The notes below the pieces were generated by a model, which saw only the letters and a list, made by a program, of their open reading frames with translations, was not told where the DNA came from and did no database searches. This document shows, piece after piece, positions 25,408 to 34,494 of a DNA stretch of 64,000 bases; within the stretch, counting starts at the first letter, position 1; every line of letters starts with the position of its first letter. The stretch is from Bacillota bacterium (GTDB lineage Bacteria > Bacillota > Dethiobacteria > DTU022 > PWGO01): assembly GCA_012518215.1 (NCBI GenBank), contig JAAYSV010000049.1, positions 125,025 to 189,024 of the forward strand, in the 5' to 3' direction. Position numbers and translations under genes: made by a program.

Positions 25408-28400
25408 TCAGGAGAAAGGTCCCCTGTTTATCTTGATGGGGGTGCCCCATCGTTTGAAGGTTTCGGCATGTGAAAGAATGATAAACTGGCGTTTATCCTT
25501 CTGGCGATGCAATATTTCGCGGATTTTTTGCAGACGCCCGGCATCGGTGCCAGTAAAAGGGTCATCAAGGATGAGGGGCAACCTTATATTCTCGGCCAGA
25601 AGATCCGCCAGTGCGAAGCGCAACGACAGATAAAGCTGATCCCGGGCCCCCTTGCTCAACTGTGCCACACTGCATTCACGGCCATCCTCGAGAACACCGA
25701 TGTTGAAGCCCTCATCCATACTGATCTTTCTGTTGGCCCTTCCCGTAATATCGAAGCAATATTCCGAAGCCTGATTCTCGAGACGCTCCTTGTGAGTGGA
25801 ACGATAATCATCTATCGCCCCTTTCAATTCCTTGTAAGCAAGCGTCAGCGCATCGGCGTTCATTTCCATCTTTTCTTTTTCCATTGTCATTTCCCCGAGT
25901 TCAAGTTCCGCGGCGGCAATATTGAGGGGCTTTTCTCCTTCAAGTGAGGCCTGCTGCCTGAAAAGGTCGTTGCGCTTTTCCTCCAGCCCGCTTTTCTTTT
26001 CCCCTAACTTGGCGATCTCCGCCTCCAGTTTCTCCCGGGCATCGGTCACATATTTAAGATCATCGACCCGATCGGTCCCCGGCAGGCCCGGGTTCTGTTC
26101 AATGAAGCTCTGCCAATCCCTCAACAATGCAATGGCTTGATCCTGAGCCCGATTGTAAACGCCCTGTAGATCCGAAACCCCCTCTGCATCATTTCTGTCC
26201 AGAATTGTTTTCAGTTTGATATCGGCATCACTTTTCTCACGTGAAAGCTGTTGCCACTCCTTCCAGCGTGACAGGGCCACGGCGGTGTCGCCTTCGTAAG
26301 CCTCCAGAATTCCCGGCAACAATTCAAGCAAATCCGCTTTTTTTTCTTGCAAAACCGCCAGGTTGTTTTTCTCCTCCTCCAGCCTTTCCCCTTGCCCTTC
26401 AACCATGTTCTTTTTCTCTTCAATCTCTGCCATCAGTCGGGACAGCTCCGCCGCCTCTTCAGCCTGCTCCGCCCACCAGGTATCGGCAAGGTCCTGCAAC
26501 CGTCCGGTCATGTTGGCAGCCTTCTGTACCGCTGTATCACCAAACTTCATACCCAGAAAACGTGCTGTTTCCTTCCATTCCCCGGAAACTTCATCTGACC
26601 GTAGATCGGCAGCCTCCGCTTCTTCCGGGCTGCATCCAAGTTTCTGTTCTGCAAAAAGATATGATTTTTCCAACAAGGTTTGTTTCTGATCAAGTAGATT
26701 CTGCCATCGGGCATAAGCTACGGGGATATCTTCCGGATTGGCCGCAAATACAGCCATTTTATGCTCATAGTCTCTCATTTCCTCCGCCGCTTTTTCAGCT
26801 TTTTTCCGCAATCCATCCATTTCATCTTCCGATGGCAATTCCCCGGCCAGCGCCGCCAGGCGTTGCCGTTCATATTCGCTGCGCTGCAGGCGCTCGGCAA
26901 GCCTTCCCAGTTCCGCATCCCCCCATGCAGCATACGGCCCAAGCTTGCGGTCATAGTCGGCCAGTTCGGCCATGAGCATCTGCATTTCCCCCGCAGCATG
27001 GATACCCTTGCCTTTCCTGCGCCAGCCGGCTATCCGGCGATAAACGAGGCCACCCAACCAGTAACCGACCCCCCCGGCGATGATCGCCGCCACGGCCATA
27101 AGAAAGATGTTGCCCATTCCGACGATCACGCCAGCCGCGGCTGCAAGGACCAATGCCCCGCACAACCCGGGAAGCAGGGATGGCGGTGCTGCCACCTCCC
27201 CCCCCGCCCCGGTTTCCAGTTCTCGTTTTCTTTTCAGTGTCCCCAGCTTTCCCTCCACGAGGGCGGCAGCGTCTTCCGGAAGCCCCTTCAAATCGGCATA
27301 TTGTTCCTCGTACCCCGACCTGGCTTCCAGGTAATCATCTACCGTGGCAAGCTCCCGCTGTGTCTTTTCTGCCGTATCCTTCAGCCGCGTGTATTGTTGA
27401 TTGTATGCCCGGACCATCTCCAGTTCATCCCGTGACGCTTCTTCAAAGGGTGCAAATTCGTCCCCAAGCTGTCGGTCGATGTCATTGATTTTTCCAAGCA
27501 CCGCTTTGAAATCATCCCACTGTTGCCGGCAATTTTCGGCGAGGCTTTTCAGATGTTTCAGTTTCTCCACCGGATCGGTGCCCAGCAGTTCACGGGCCGC
27601 AAAATTACCATATGCTTCCATCTGTTCTTGCAGTGATCTTCTCCCTTCATTCAGGGATTCTTCAATTTCTCTTATCTTCTCCTCCACCTCGCGCAGCCGC
27701 CTTTCATTGTTATCCAGCTCGACGAGACGGTCGCCCGTCTCCGGAGGAACGTCAACAAATGCGGGAAAATCACGCCCATACTTCAGCTGCCACCGTGTTA
27801 TCTCTTCTTGAAGTTTCTCCGCGTCCTCACTGTCCCGCTGCAGCTTGTCACGTTCCCGGGTGGCATGGCGGTATTTTTCGGCCCGGAAATTCCAACCGGA
27901 CCAGGCCTCGTTGGCTTTTTTCCTGTCTTCAAGTTCCTTTCCCGTCTGCTGAAGCTCCTCCTGTGTTTTCGACAACTGCTCCCGCACGGCCAGAAAGGAA
28001 TCTGCCTTCTGCCGCCCGTCTTCAATCTGCCGTTCCAGATCCTCGATTCTTTCAGCAAGGAGTTCCAGCTTCCTGTCCTTGCTCTGATTTCTCGCCGTGA
28101 TCCCGCGTTCGTTGGGTCCCGTGTATTTGGTCAGCGATTTCAGGTTTTCGACAAGATTCTCCAACGCTCGGTTGAATGAAGTCCCCTTCCCGCCGGCAAG
28201 CAGGCCCTGAAGTTCGGAACTGATGTTCTCCGGTTCCGGCAACGGCTGCCCGACACAGAAAGTATCCCCGAAAAGTTCAACGCTGTTCAAACCCAACAGT
28301 TCCAGCAACTTTTTTTCATACTCCTCCAATTTTTTTATGGCTTCCGGATTGTGTTCTCCTTCAACGAGCAATTTTCCGCCATCAGCTCCCAGGGATCGGA

Positions 28401-28725
28401 GTTCCACACGATGCGTATCAAAATCCCTCTTGACAAGATAATCTTCTTCCCCGACGGAAAAATACACTTCGCCCAGGCATCTTCGGGGATTATCCCAGTT
28501 GCGTAAACGTTCAAGGGTAAAAGGCGAGGTACTCCTGCTGCGGTGGCTCAGTCCAAACAATGTGGTGATCAGGCCCGCTACCATGGTGGTCTTGCCCGTT
28601 TCATTTTCCGCCACGTAATAATTTATCCCCGGCGAGAAATCAAACTCCGTCCTCTCCGGATAGCAGCCAAACCCTTCAAGAACGAGACGGTTGAACGTTA
28701 CGTTGTGGTCATGCTTTCCGGTCAT
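25408..28725 (-). CDS. SbcC/YhaN-like SMC-type ATPase with a central membrane hairpin
   Basis: 1105 residues. The N-terminal ATPase half has a Walker A variant AENETGKTT (residues 39-47; the usual first Gly is Ala). The C-terminal half has the signature AQLSKGARDQLYLSL, Walker B LPLILDDPF and the H-loop ILSHA. Long coiled coils (about 220-500 and 600-1000) flank two hydrophobic segments at residues ~517-537 and ~539-562, followed by a basic stretch. This is where SbcC/Rad50 proteins carry a zinc hook. It resembles YhaN of Bacillus subtilis. Its start overlaps the SbcD-like stop as ATGA, so the two subunits are likely translated together and form a DNA-end-processing complex. Confidence 0.88.
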   Translation of the reverse strand: MTGKHDHNVTFNRLVLEGFGCYPERTEFDFSPGINYYVAENETGKTTMVAGLITTLFGLSHRSRSTSPFTLERLRNWDNPRRCLGEVYFSVGEEDYLVKRDFDTHRVELRSLGADGGKLLVEGEHNPEAIKKLEEYEKKLLELLGLNSVELFGDTFCVGQPLPEPENISSELQGLLAGGKGTSFNRALENLVENLKSLTKYTGPNERGITARNQSKDRKLELLAERIEDLERQIEDGRQKADSFLAVREQLSKTQEELQQTGKELEDRKKANEAWSGWNFRAEKYRHATRERDKLQRDSEDAEKLQEEITRWQLKYGRDFPAFVDVPPETGDRLVELDNNERRLREVEEKIREIEESLNEGRRSLQEQMEAYGNFAARELLGTDPVEKLKHLKSLAENCRQQWDDFKAVLGKINDIDRQLGDEFAPFEEASRDELEMVRAYNQQYTRLKDTAEKTQRELATVDDYLEARSGYEEQYADLKGLPEDAAALVEGKLGTLKRKRELETGAGGEVAAPPSLLPGLCGALVLAAAAGVIVGMGNIFLMAVAAIIAGGVGYWLGGLVYRRIAGWRRKGKGIHAAGEMQMLMAELADYDRKLGPYAAWGDAELGRLAERLQRSEYERQRLAALAGELPSEDEMDGLRKKAEKAAEEMRDYEHKMAVFAANPEDIPVAYARWQNLLDQKQTLLEKSYLFAEQKLGCSPEEAEAADLRSDEVSGEWKETARFLGMKFGDTAVQKAANMTGRLQDLADTWWAEQAEEAAELSRLMAEIEEKKNMVEGQGERLEEEKNNLAVLQEKKADLLELLPGILEAYEGDTAVALSRWKEWQQLSREKSDADIKLKTILDRNDAEGVSDLQGVYNRAQDQAIALLRDWQSFIEQNPGLPGTDRVDDLKYVTDAREKLEAEIAKLGEKKSGLEEKRNDLFRQQASLEGEKPLNIAAAELELGEMTMEKEKMEMNADALTLAYKELKGAIDDYRSTHKERLENQASEYCFDITGRANRKISMDEGFNIGVLEDGRECSVAQLSKGARDQLYLSLRFALADLLAENIRLPLILDDPFTGTDAGRLQKIREILHRQKDKRQFIILSHAETFKRWGTPIKINRGPFS

Positions 28726-29852
28726 ACCTGATCCACCCCCTGCAGCGCGGCCAGTCCCTTGCGCATGGCCTGTCCCAGCAGTTTCCGCTCCTGCTCGTTT
28801 TCCGCTGTTGCCTGCTTCTTCCGGAGCCGTCGCACGAAATTCCCTCTCACCGTGGGTTCCTGTGCAAGACTCTCGAGGAAGGTATCCGAGAAATATTCGG
28901 TCTCATTTTTTATTTCGATATAAAAGAAATAAGGTTCCAGTGCATCCAGTAACTGTTCTTCCCCGAAATGGAAGGGTGGCGTACCTTTGAATGTCAACTG
29001 CACCATGGCTTCGGGATCGGCAAAACTTTTGCAGGTTTCAAGCAGATCGTCCGCCCCCTCCAGACCGGAAAGTTCCAAATTGCGAATCTGATGCCGGCGT
29101 ATATCAAGTTCTGCCTTCTCAATTTTTATACGGCCCCCGCTGTATTCGGCGACGACAAGGCCGCCGGTTCCCGGGTCGTTGAAACTCTTGAACTCGGCCG
29201 CTCCCGGATAAACCGCCATCCCCTTCCCCACTGTTTTCTCGGTATAGCGGTGTATGTGCCCTAGGGCAATATAGTCGTAACCGGCCTCTTTCAGCAGCCC
29301 GGATTTGAGAGGAAGGCTTCTGTCGGCGACCCCTTCCCAATCCAGCGAACCGTGAAAAGCCCCGATATGAAGCCCGGGCAAGTCTTTCCGGGGAAACTTT
29401 TCGATGGAAGAAACAATTGTGAGCCCGCCCGTAAAGGCCAGAGCATAAACATGCAACCCGGTACCGTTCACTTCGACGGAAACTGACAGTTCAGGCATGG
29501 GATTCACCACGAGCTCACCCGGCCAATTGGCGCCATGCTGCCGGTAAACCGAATCCCGGTAGGTAATCTCATCGTGATTCCCCGGTACGGTAATGACACG
29601 GAGCCCCGCTGTGGTCAGGCGCCCCAGATTATCAAGAACCTGGCGGACGAGGGATTCATCGGGGCGGTAATCCTCAAATAAATCACCGACGATGAACACG
29701 GCATGAATATCGTTACCGGGGGAAAGTGCAAAATCAACCGCTTTCGCTAGCAGTTGATTGCGTTCCCGCAGACGGACTTTCTTTTTTTCGCCGCCCAAAT
29801 AAGATGGAGCCCAGCCCAGATGCAGGTCAGCCAGATGCAAGATGCGCAACAT
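28722..29852 (-). CDS. SbcD/YhaO-like metallophosphoesterase (DNA repair exonuclease)
   Basis: 376 residues; ATG 29852 behind AGAGGTG. Calcineurin-like dimetal phosphoesterase with DLHLG near the N-terminus, VGDLFEDYRPDE, PGNHDEITYRD, and GHIHRY. Family members are 3'-5' exonucleases and endonucleases partnered with an SMC-type ATPase. Overlap of 4 nt with the SbcC-like gene supports an obligate pair. The C-terminal ~100 residues are divergent and may be the ATPase-binding part. Confidence 0.92.
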   Translation of the reverse strand: MLRILHLADLHLGWAPSYLGGEKKKVRLRERNQLLAKAVDFALSPGNDIHAVFIVGDLFEDYRPDESLVRQVLDNLGRLTTAGLRVITVPGNHDEITYRDSVYRQHGANWPGELVVNPMPELSVSVEVNGTGLHVYALAFTGGLTIVSSIEKFPRKDLPGLHIGAFHGSLDWEGVADRSLPLKSGLLKEAGYDYIALGHIHRYTEKTVGKGMAVYPGAAEFKSFNDPGTGGLVVAEYSGGRIKIEKAELDIRRHQIRNLELSGLEGADDLLETCKSFADPEAMVQLTFKGTPPFHFGEEQLLDALEPYFFYIEIKNETEYFSDTFLESLAQEPTVRGNFVRRLRKKQATAENEQERKLLGQAMRKGLAALQGVDQV

Positions 29853-30170
29853 GATTCACCTCTGGTAATGATTGGATTCTCCATTCATGATATACGAGCC
29901 GGAAAGTTCTGGCAACCTTTTTGCACCCGATCGATACCCCGGAAATCGGCGGCAGTATTGCGCCCACACCCTCACCCATTATCATCTTGAACCACTTTCA
30001 AATCCTTGCCTTGCAGGATATCGATATATCTTTACAGAATCATTACTTGTTACCATAATTGACCTTCCGTGCTGTATGATCCGCCAAGCCTGATCAGACA
30101 AGTTTCATTTCCGAGGTCCGCAGGCAAAGGCCCCAAAATGATTTCAAGAAAGGAATACAGGTGAACCCGG
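29853..30170. other. Divergent intergenic region
   Basis: 318 bases between the SbcD-like gene (minus) and the acetyltransferase gene (plus). It must contain both promoters, but no convincing -35/-10 pair was identified and no structured RNA was seen. Confidence 0.4.
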
Positions 30171-30982: not shown

Positions 30983-31069
30983 TGGTGCGAGCGAAGGGAT
31001 TTGAACCCCCACGGGCTTGCGCCCACTAGGTCCTGAACCTAGCGCGTCTGCCGATTCCGCCACGCTCGC
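30983..31069 (-). tRNA. tRNA-Leu (anticodon CAG)
   Basis: 87-nt type II tRNA with encoded CCA. The acceptor stem GCGAGCG pairs with CGCTCGC followed by discriminator A and CCA. The anticodon stem CTAGG/CCTAG encloses TTCAGGA, giving anticodon CAG (31033-31035) for CUG codons. The long variable arm GGGC-GCAA-GCCC is typical of tRNA-Leu; the T arm has GGTTCAAATCC. Confidence 0.97.
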
Positions 31070-32332: not shown

Positions 32333-33112
32333 TTAATCATTTTCGGATGGTTTCCCGGACGCAGCGGTCCCTGTCAACCGCCCCAGCAGATGTTTGAATT
32401 CCATCGGCAGCGGGAAAGCAATCAGAGACCCTTGCTGCGCCGCTATTTCCGGCAGTGACCGCAGGAGACGCACAAACATCCCCCCGTCCTGGTGTGCCAG
32501 GATGGCAGCTGCCTCGGCCAACCTCTCTGCCGCCTGTTTCTCGCCCTCGGCCTGGATAACGATGGCGCGCCGTTCTCTCTCTGCCGCCGCCTGCCTGGAG
32601 ATAGCCTTCTGGAGGCCTTCGGGAATCACCACGTCCTTGATCTCCACCGATGTGACTTTGATCCCCCAGGGATCGGTAGCTTCGTCAAGGATCTTCTGAA
32701 TCAGCTGGTTCAATTTGTCCCTCTCCGCCAGCAGGCCATCGAGTTCCGCCTGGCCGGCAACACTCCTGAGCGTGGTCTGCGCCATCTGCGAGGTGGCAAA
32801 CATGTAATCCTCCACGTTGACCACCGCGCGGTTCGGATCGACCACACGATAGTAGACAACCGCATTGACGCTGACAGTAACGTTGTCACGGGTTATCACG
32901 TCCTGTGTGGGAACATCGAGAGTGATGGTCCGCAGTGAAATGCGCACCGCCTTGTCCAGCAGGGGGATGATAAAGATTACCCCCGGCCCTTTGGCCGCGA
33001 TCAGATGGCCGAGGCGGAAAACCACCATCCTCTCGTACTCCTTCACCACCTTCAGTGAAGAAGCAATAAAAGCAATCAGAATCGCTACTACAACAACCCA
33101 GAATGTCTCCAT
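32333..33112 (-). CDS. Slipin/stomatin-like SPFH protein
   Basis: 259 residues. A single N-terminal membrane helix (about residues 4-19) is followed by the SPFH domain (VVFRLGHLIAAKGPGVIFII, TQDVITRDNVTVSVNAVVYY, TSVEIKDVVIPEGLQKAI). A C-terminal coiled coil rich in Ala/Glu (AAAERERRAIVIQAEGEKQA) drives oligomers. Such proteins organise membrane microdomains with NfeD partners. The start codon overlaps the NfeD stop by one base (TGATG), so translation is coupled. Confidence 0.95.
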   Translation of the reverse strand: METFWVVVVAILIAFIASSLKVVKEYERMVVFRLGHLIAAKGPGVIFIIPLLDKAVRISLRTITLDVPTQDVITRDNVTVSVNAVVYYRVVDPNRAVVNVEDYMFATSQMAQTTLRSVAGQAELDGLLAERDKLNQLIQKILDEATDPWGIKVTSVEIKDVVIPEGLQKAISRQAAAERERRAIVIQAEGEKQAAERLAEAAAILAHQDGGMFVRLLRSLPEIAAQQGSLIAFPLPMEFKHLLGRLTGTAASGKPSEND

Positions 33113-34494
33113 CAGAAAATACCTCCTTCATTTTCATCCATGGCTTTCACCAGGAGCAACAACCCTTCCTGGTTGACAACCTGAACCTCCCTGCCAACTT
33201 CCACAACCCCTTTTTCCAGATTCCTGGCCTTCCATATCTCGCCCTGGAAACTGACCAGCCCTCCGGGTGAAAGTTCCTCCACGACCACAGCCTTCTCCGG
33301 CATGTGAAAAAATCTGGGTTCCTTTTTGCGCCGCCTCCACGATCCGATCACGGCCTGGACAACGATGAGCAGCAGGATGCCGACACCGACGACAACACCG
33401 ATGACCGTGGCCCGAAAAGCGTGGTACCAGTCCGGTGCCATCAATGGCTCGATGGGCAGCAATATCGAACCGAAAAGCAAACTGATGATGCCTCCTATAC
33501 CCAGAATCCCGAAACCCGGTGTAAATATCTCTGCAATGATCAGGGCCACCCCCACTACCAGCAATATTATTCCCGTGGTGCTGATATCGAAAAGCCCCAT
33601 TCCGTAAATACCCATCACCAGGATTATACCACCGAGTACCTCCGGGACGAAGGTGCCGGGCATATTCAACCCCAGATAGATTCCGGCCAGGCCCAGCATC
33701 AGCAGAAGAAATGCTACCTGCGGATTGCTCAATGTGTTCTGGAGCCTTTCGCCGATATTCATGCGCACATCCACAAGACGGGCACCGGCCGTCTGCATGA
33801 TCAGCGCCTCCCCCTCCTTCTCCACCTCGTAACCATCGAGTTCCAGCAGAAGTTCATTCAGGTTCGCCGCCGTAATATCGGACACCCCCAGCTCCATGGC
33901 ATCCTCGTAATTCAGAACCAGGTTCTCGGTAATGAATTTTTCCGCGATCTCCTCCGGGCGCCCGGTTTCCTTGGCCATGCTGCGAATATGACCGGCCAGG
34001 AAACGTTCTGTCTTCTCCTCCGCAGGGGCGGTGCCCCCTTCGGGGGAAAGAGTGATGGGCTGTGCCGCCCCGACGGTGGTACCCGGGGCCATGGCCGCCA
34101 CATCAGCACTGATGAGGATGAATGCACCCGCCGAAGCCGCTATTGCCCCCGAGGGGGCCACGAAGACGACCACCGGCAGATACGTACCCCTGAATATTCT
34201 ATTTATATCCAGGGTCGCATCGACCAGCCCCCCGGGGGTATTCATCATCACGATAACAGCTTGCGCACCGGCCTCCTCGGCCTTCAGTACATGGCGCTCC
34301 AGAAATCCGGCGGTGCCGACCGTGATCATATCCTCAATCGGGATGACATAGACCACGTTCCTGCCGTCAGCAGAAACCTCACTTGCCGGCAGCAAAAACA
34401 TGACCAGCAGGGCCGCTCCAAGTAAAATAAAGACCAAACCTCTTTTAATAATCACCGGCCTGCCCCTTTCATCTGCTACAATCGGATTCGCCAA
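33112..34494 (-). CDS. NfeD family protein with ClpP-class membrane serine protease domain
   Basis: 460 residues. An N-terminal signal/anchor helix (about 18-37) leads to a protease domain with MMNTPGGLVDATLDI and the nucleophile Ser in APSGAIAASAGAFI, as in the NfeD1b/PH1510 type that cleaves near the C-terminus of its stomatin partner. Four hydrophobic helices follow (about 250-385), then the soluble OB-fold NfeD domain at the C-terminus (GLVSFQGEIWKAR). Directly coupled to the slipin gene. Confidence 0.94.
   Translation of the reverse strand: MANPIVADERGRPVIIKRGLVFILLGAALLVMFLLPASEVSADGRNVVYVIPIEDMITVGTAGFLERHVLKAEEAGAQAVIVMMNTPGGLVDATLDINRIFRGTYLPVVVFVAPSGAIAASAGAFILISADVAAMAPGTTVGAAQPITLSPEGGTAPAEEKTERFLAGHIRSMAKETGRPEEIAEKFITENLVLNYEDAMELGVSDITAANLNELLLELDGYEVEKEGEALIMQTAGARLVDVRMNIGERLQNTLSNPQVAFLLLMLGLAGIYLGLNMPGTFVPEVLGGIILVMGIYGMGLFDISTTGIILLVVGVALIIAEIFTPGFGILGIGGIISLLFGSILLPIEPLMAPDWYHAFRATVIGVVVGVGILLLIVVQAVIGSWRRRKKEPRFFHMPEKAVVVEELSPGGLVSFQGEIWKARNLEKGVVEVGREVQVVNQEGLLLLVKAMDENEGGIF

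Follow-up and report, generated by a model that had tools for sequence, protein, structure and literature searches.

The stretch of contig JAAYSV010000049.1 analysed here (64,000 nucleotides from a Bacillota bacterium, assembly GCA_012518215.1; the window) raises the question of what an SbcC-like ATPase carries at its apex when the zinc hook is missing. Two adjacent genes on the minus strand are concerned. The first, at 28722..29852, encodes a 376-residue calcineurin-like nuclease of the SbcD/Mre11 type, and directly after it an open reading frame with an ATG start (25408..28725) encodes a 1105-residue SbcC/Rad50-type ATP-binding cassette (ABC) ATPase with a long coiled coil and a central hydrophobic hairpin; the stop of one and the start of the other share 4 base pairs (bp) as ATGA at 28722..28725. 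An earlier note on this DNA had seen in the pair a membrane-tethered processor of DNA ends. That architecture proves largely right, and we consider it probable that the pair is a membrane-anchored DNA-end processor of the SbcCD type, but the same kind of protein is already known in SbcE. What is added here is a separate clade, the exact position of the apex, the evidence on the nuclease and a second pair in the same genome.

The nuclease and ATPase gene pair

The ATPase has the organisation characteristic of SbcC and Rad50, an ABC head whose Walker A, signature and Walker B motifs are split by a long coiled coil. All three motifs are read from the minus strand: Walker A (AENETGKT, amino acids 39–46, 28588..28611), of which N41, E42, G44 and K45 are invariant in 18/18 rows of alignment A4; the ABC signature (LSKGARD, 1023–1029, 25639..25659), of which L1023, S1024, G1026 and D1029 are nearly invariant in the same alignment; and the Walker B region (LPLILDDPF, 1049–1057, 25555..25581), where this holds for L1049, P1050, D1054, D1055 and F1057. 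The earlier note read the Walker A motif correctly and thought its first residue unusual. SbcE/YhaN proteins of Bacilli do have glycine there where the window ATPase has alanine, but among 29 proteins of its own clade, itself included, the residue is Ala in 24, Thr in two, Gly in two and Leu in one; alanine is thus typical of the clade rather than unusual.

In Pfam the ATPase matches AAA_23 at 38.1 bits (cut-off 27) and falls below the cut-off of 40 for SMC_N with 34.6 bits; its match to AAA_27 (PF13514), at 22.8 bits barely over the cut-off of 22, covers only positions 3–69 of the 206 in the profile (67 positions), whereas the Latilactobacillus protein discussed below reaches 67.6 bits. The curated SbcC model TIGR00618 tells little here, since the 18.2 bits scored by the ATPase compare with a cut-off of 478.5 that none of 119 phylum genomes reaches, hook-type SbcCs included. 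Every NCBIfam match of either protein lies below its cut-off, the nearest being that of the nuclease to the curated model TIGR00619 (52.5 bits, cut-off 77.65). By sequence the closest solved relatives of the ATPase are Rad50 heads, the match lying in the C-terminal lobe. Its AlphaFold model, made from an 18-row alignment, has a mean predicted local distance difference test score (pLDDT) of 79.2 and a predicted template modelling score of 0.40, with the head and coils mostly confident, and aligns with Rad50, SbcC and SMC heads at VIA-align Z scores of 22.0–27.1 in the best 50 rows. Head motifs and structure matches alike bear out the reading of this protein as SbcC-like.

The nuclease matches Metallophos of Pfam at 48.9 bits, and its closest solved relatives by sequence are Mre11 and SbcD. 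Its AlphaFold model (pLDDT 89.6) has the calcineurin-like fold with the Mre11 cap and aligns with Mre11/SbcD structures over 276–327 residues at Z scores of 22.6–26.6 in the first 39 rows, followed by further calcineurin-like enzymes, none above 19.6. The motifs DLH (amino acids 9–11, 29820..29828) and GNHDE (91–95, 29568..29582), on the minus strand like the rest, are invariant in all 17 rows of alignment A5, as are G198, H199 and H201 of GHIH (198–201, 29250..29261). D9, H11, D57, N92, H93, H167, H199 and H201 are invariant in all 17 rows as well; we take these eight residues to be the metal site, from its positions in the Mre11 family. An SbcD-like nuclease gene that overlaps the ATPase gene as ATGA, as the earlier note had it, is therefore what we find.

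The pairing is tight beyond the window. In 32 of 33 loci, the window included, a nuclease gene lies directly upstream of the ATPase gene (31 by a pattern script and L090 by inspection); the count uses sequence patterns only and includes partial ATPase frames, and one further locus has too little upstream sequence to be scored. The sole locus without an adjacent nuclease gene (L085/L158) has a purF-like gene upstream and an apparent transposase gene nearby, as named by eye. Gene order, ABC head, long coiled coil and Mre11-type partner are all shared with hook-type SbcCD and Mre11-Rad50.

The central hydrophobic hairpin

The likeness to hook-type SbcC ends where the coiled coil has its apex. There, at 27040..27195 on the minus strand, amino acids 511–562 of the window ATPase form a hydrophobic two-helix hairpin with a 19-residue Kyte-Doolittle mean of at least 1.6 and a maximum of 2.36, centred at 0.49 of the chain length. 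Among 5000 residue shuffles of the protein none matched the hydrophobicity of the 46-residue span and 28 reached the single 19-residue maximum, so that chance is ruled out for the double helix only and not for the single peak. All 29 complete proteins of the clade, which are 856–1220 amino acids long and include that of the window, have a hydrophobic segment centred at 0.47–0.51 of the chain; one central segment sufficed for this count, from which broken, partial and masked frames (among them L076, L079, L082, L084, L087 and L100) were excluded. A central segment was likewise seen in L145, L148 and L149, beyond the 29. The hairpin thus holds its place in mid-chain while the length of the arms varies, as expected of a coiled-coil apex. 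No CxxC occurs in the central 16% of the chain in any of the 29, window protein included, which removes the window ATPase from the hook-type SbcCs; by contrast, 9/9 complete SbcCs of the phylum (L125–L133, chosen by their match to TIGR00618) lack a hairpin and carry a CPVC hook close to mid-chain. The earlier note had placed a two-helix hydrophobic stretch where SbcC has its hook, and it lies there indeed.

Membrane anchoring through this hairpin is well supported as an inference, and a soluble hinge, or a patch on the surface of the membrane, in place of a transmembrane hairpin seems to us very unlikely. Such a hinge or patch would suit the two Ala/Gly-rich helices of the window protein, whose energies of 0.59 and 0.44 kcal/mol are marginal on an insertion scale; it would also suit the AlphaFold model, which has no confident membrane helices at the hairpin, and the three proteins of 29 (L072, L086 and L150) that have a single shorter central segment at the cut-off used. 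Against it, the stretch is only about 50 residues long, and 26 of the 29 proteins have either a pair of segments or a single one no shorter than 39 residues. Basic residues flank the stretch at either end in almost every one of 21 rows (at least one Lys or Arg among the 15 residues preceding the segment in 21/21 and among the 15 following it in 20/21, a count with no background control and in coiled coils that are charged anyway), and the YhaN group shows greater hydrophobicity at the same place, reaching 2.81. Of the confident soluble core that the earlier note had set against its own claim the model holds none, pLDDT being below 50 for amino acids 508–540 and 550–571.

The motif [GA]xxx[GA] is of the kind that packs helices. 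In hairpins of the window clade (21 proteins) it makes up 0.142 of pairs, compared with 0.059 in a control set of 156 membrane segments (p 5.5e-7), in a comparison that sets whole hairpins against single helices and whose sequences are related and GC-rich rather than independent; two other hairpin groups, with eight proteins each, are not enriched (0.036 and 0.037). The excess in the window clade weakly favours dimerisation through the hairpins, and its absence from the other two speaks against extending this to every group. In Rad50 the apex is a dimerisation module, since in yeast the MukB SMC hinge can replace the hook and leave DNA repair intact (PMC6969161). We offer as a tentative and rather doubtful idea that two hairpins would pack together within the bilayer, forming a bundle of four helices, and so take over the job of the zinc hook; SbcCD-type complexes would then be either free or rooted in the membrane, the rooted form prevailing in organisms like this one.

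Relatives in Bacilli and in the same phylum

The closest parallel is the SbcE/SbcF (YhaN/YhaO) pair of Bacilli, in which an SbcC-like ATPase also has a two-helix hairpin in mid-chain and an SbcD-like nuclease gene directly upstream. YhaN-type proteins from Listeria and Latilactobacillus, whose loci we take to be yhaON from their gene order, have the same central hairpin as the window ATPase. The Listeria protein comes from a 2.9-Mb record (L121) that is filed as a plasmid in PLSDB and is of chromosome size; the stretch bears no annotation. On the 220-kb plasmid record of Latilactobacillus curvatus (L123, 748–6360) a YlbF-family gene, the nuclease gene, the hairpin ATPase gene and an HD-domain gene are consecutive, a row that resembles the yhaONM order, and the middle two are annotated as "DNA repair exonuclease" and "AAA family ATPase". 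Beside the window pair there is no yhaM-like gene. The next gene downstream of the ATPase is a LysM gene, so the order yhaO-yhaN-yhaM is absent although the upstream nuclease is present.

A tree of head domains (53 of 55 rows, L069 and L071 of the window clade having been missed because their Walker A motifs start with Thr) sets the hook-type SbcCs apart from all others (8/8, support 100/99). The window clade is a single branch of 23 rows (100/99) that excludes the Listeria and Latilactobacillus proteins, an ATPase clade of the 775-residue kind described below is another (8 rows, 100/100), and the YhaN group with those two proteins makes up the third hairpin set; YhaN of B. subtilis itself is not in the tree. 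The relation to YhaN that the earlier note proposed holds, and the hairpin is shared, but with its own clade and without the yhaO-yhaN-yhaM order the window protein does not belong to YhaN proper. Long YhaN proteins, with AAA_27 scores above 170 bits (a Microvirga plasmid and three other genomes), belong to the same superfamily and have an SbcD-like nuclease gene upstream in 3/4 cases; unlike the window clade, the four complete proteins (1173–1192 amino acids) have neither hairpin nor hook. They group with YhaN at 94/91, a branch that is not starred and whose inner order is unresolved. The hairpin label requires two changes on this tree, and a single origin followed by loss is thus not distinguishable from two gains. 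One protein without hairpin or hook (L064) sits on a long branch and has an unsure place. Still shorter ATPases with a central hairpin occur in L142/L159 (4150–6240, 696 amino acids) and L124 (3420–5459, 679 amino acids); near them the L159 stretch shows no nuclease pattern and L124, the gene table of which is incomplete, has no annotated nuclease.

Strong relatives, either complete or truncated where a contig ends, are present in eight of the 59 other genomes of a 60-genome set. An alignment-based scan of contigs gave 22 relative loci from metagenome assemblies, most of them under the titles Bacillota, Firmicutes or Clostridia, with one Desulfovibrio; the same scan with the single ATPase protein as query found no relative. 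Among 398 genomes of the phylum the clade is matched in 58, its own included, at E <1e-30 and in 67 at E 1e-20, and the nine weaker than 1e-30 were left out before co-occurrence was counted.

The genome of the window has no recognised hook-type SbcC. A TIGR00618 search of it found only the window ATPase and a protein on contig C54, which from its sequence we presume to be SMC, both weakly, and a search with the hook alignment gave no match at E 1e-40, in an assembly that is 96.91% complete and in which a gene could be missed. It does have a second hairpin pair, on contig C46 (L047, 5456–8871): a 775-residue ATPase with a central hydrophobic stretch at amino acids 330–383 and a 363-residue nuclease, the genes again overlapping by 4 bp. 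This second pair differs from that of the window in its own clade, its shorter arms and a nuclease that is only 22% identical. Within one family of the order, many genomes have matching proteins similar in length to its ATPase, and eight such proteins were aligned. Across the 398 genomes, hook-type matches are rarer where the window clade is present (11/58) than where it is absent (138/340; Fisher p 0.0018, uncorrected for kinship); the total of 149/398 hook-type genomes rests on score, and the CxxC was not inspected match by match. We note that six genomes scored as having both the clade and a YhaN-type protein had one gene found twice at the same places, and that table was not used.

Function and genomic setting

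The function of this kind of protein, which the earlier note called poorly described, is less obscure than that. B. subtilis YhaN is SbcE, which the title of a 2010 paper by Krishnamurthy presents as a repair and competence protein; the abstract of that paper reportedly describes a unique central transmembrane domain. By analogy with SbcE the window pair may act in repair and possibly in the processing of incoming DNA. That it serves chiefly as an accessory of DNA uptake, acting at the competence machine on incoming strands, is an explanation to which we give little credence. It would agree with the competence named in that title and with the ComEC match over cut-off (253 bits) and the ComEA-like match under it (102.9 bits, cut-off 152.35) in the genome of the window, but such matches are common, in 12 and 11 respectively of 14 control genomes (5 and 1 over cut-off), and no com gene is among the neighbours searched for families. 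SbcEF of B. subtilis has been named among "SMC-like" factors implicated in repair (PMC12748557). In B. pumilus, transcription of the yhaONM cluster is raised after hydrogen peroxide, and a table of peroxide-responsive genes gives, under LexA/SOS, values of 8.76 for yhaO and 8.73 for yhaN (PMC3896406).

In favour of a membrane-anchored DNA-end processor count the motifs and folds of head and nuclease, the tight gene pairing, the central hydrophobic segment with its flanking basic residues, the hairpin of the Listeria and Latilactobacillus proteins, the repair and LexA/SOS links of SbcEF and yhaO/yhaN, and the lack of a recognised hook-type SbcC in this genome together with its rarity where the clade occurs. 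Several facts weigh against such a processor, apart from the marginal insertion energies, the model without confident membrane helices and the three short central segments given above. To our knowledge there is no experiment on any member of the window clade, and the matches listed in a literature search for membrane SbcC relatives, which did not reach most subscription papers, include no published work on it. The 11 genomes with both types show that the window clade and hook-type SbcC are not mutually exclusive, and related genomes are not independent; in seven of the 21 families that contain the clade, at least one genome has a hook-type match as well, and the pattern of co-occurrence may reflect lineage only. 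YhaN-type matches show no significant depletion (18/62 versus 131/336, p 0.15). The LexA-like box GAACNNNNGTTC, with one mismatch allowed, has 29 matches in the window where 25.6 are expected by chance and none in the promoter region at 29853–30170, so SOS control of the pair is rejected. In a screen for the rescue of replication forks at nicks, SbcEF was dispensable for viability under the nick-induced conditions used (PMC12748557).

Taken as a membrane-anchored SbcCD-type processor, the pair would form a complex of two ATPase and two nuclease copies. Two long coiled-coil arms would run from the head to an apex in which the two-helix hairpin, inserted in the cytoplasmic membrane, replaces the zinc hook, and the head and the nuclease would both lie on the cytoplasmic side. 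In Mre11-Rad50 the nuclease is gated by ATP binding, which closes the heads on a DNA end; by the same token an ATP-gated head might here bind and trim DNA ends or DNA hairpins, the action would take place near the membrane, and the arms may dimerise through the hairpins. If this is true, a membrane hairpin in mid-arm, present in three protein groups, would be a third type of apex and would link the processing of DNA ends to the membrane. A further suggestion is that genomes in which no SbcC can be recognised may still have an SbcCD-like function.

Linear DNA enters at the membrane, and a nuclease held there might instead degrade phage or plasmid DNA on entry, as in Lamassu and other Rad50-like systems. 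The ATPase scores 43.9 bits (E 4.9e-12) against LmuB of PADLOC and the nuclease weakly matches an anti-phage phosphoesterase of NCBIfam (28.4 bits, cut-off 420), scores too weak to identify a defence system. Rad50-like ATPases score against one another regardless, PADLOC gave no match to the nuclease at E 0.01, and none of the eight neighbours searched for families is a defence gene, the rest of the window being unannotated. Searches of 50,697 phage and 72,556 plasmid records spoke against a mobile origin, as 80% coverage of the query was reached by none of the seven phage and 31 plasmid records with any match. On this evidence an anti-invader role is unlikely, and we retain the membrane-anchored DNA-end processor as the probable identity of the pair.

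The eight neighbours encode HMGL-like/LeuA_dimer, DUF362, 2-hydroxyacid dehydrogenase, LysM, hexapeptide acetyltransferase, DAGK lipid kinase, SPFH and NfeD proteins. A promoter scan gave five matches where 4.6 are expected by chance. The sole tRNA gene detected in the window, for tRNA-Leu (CAG), lies at 30983–31069 on the minus strand, and two open reading frames that overlap it on the opposite strand are probably spurious. Further along, at 32333–34494 on the minus strand, is the SPFH/Band-7 and NfeD membrane gene pair.

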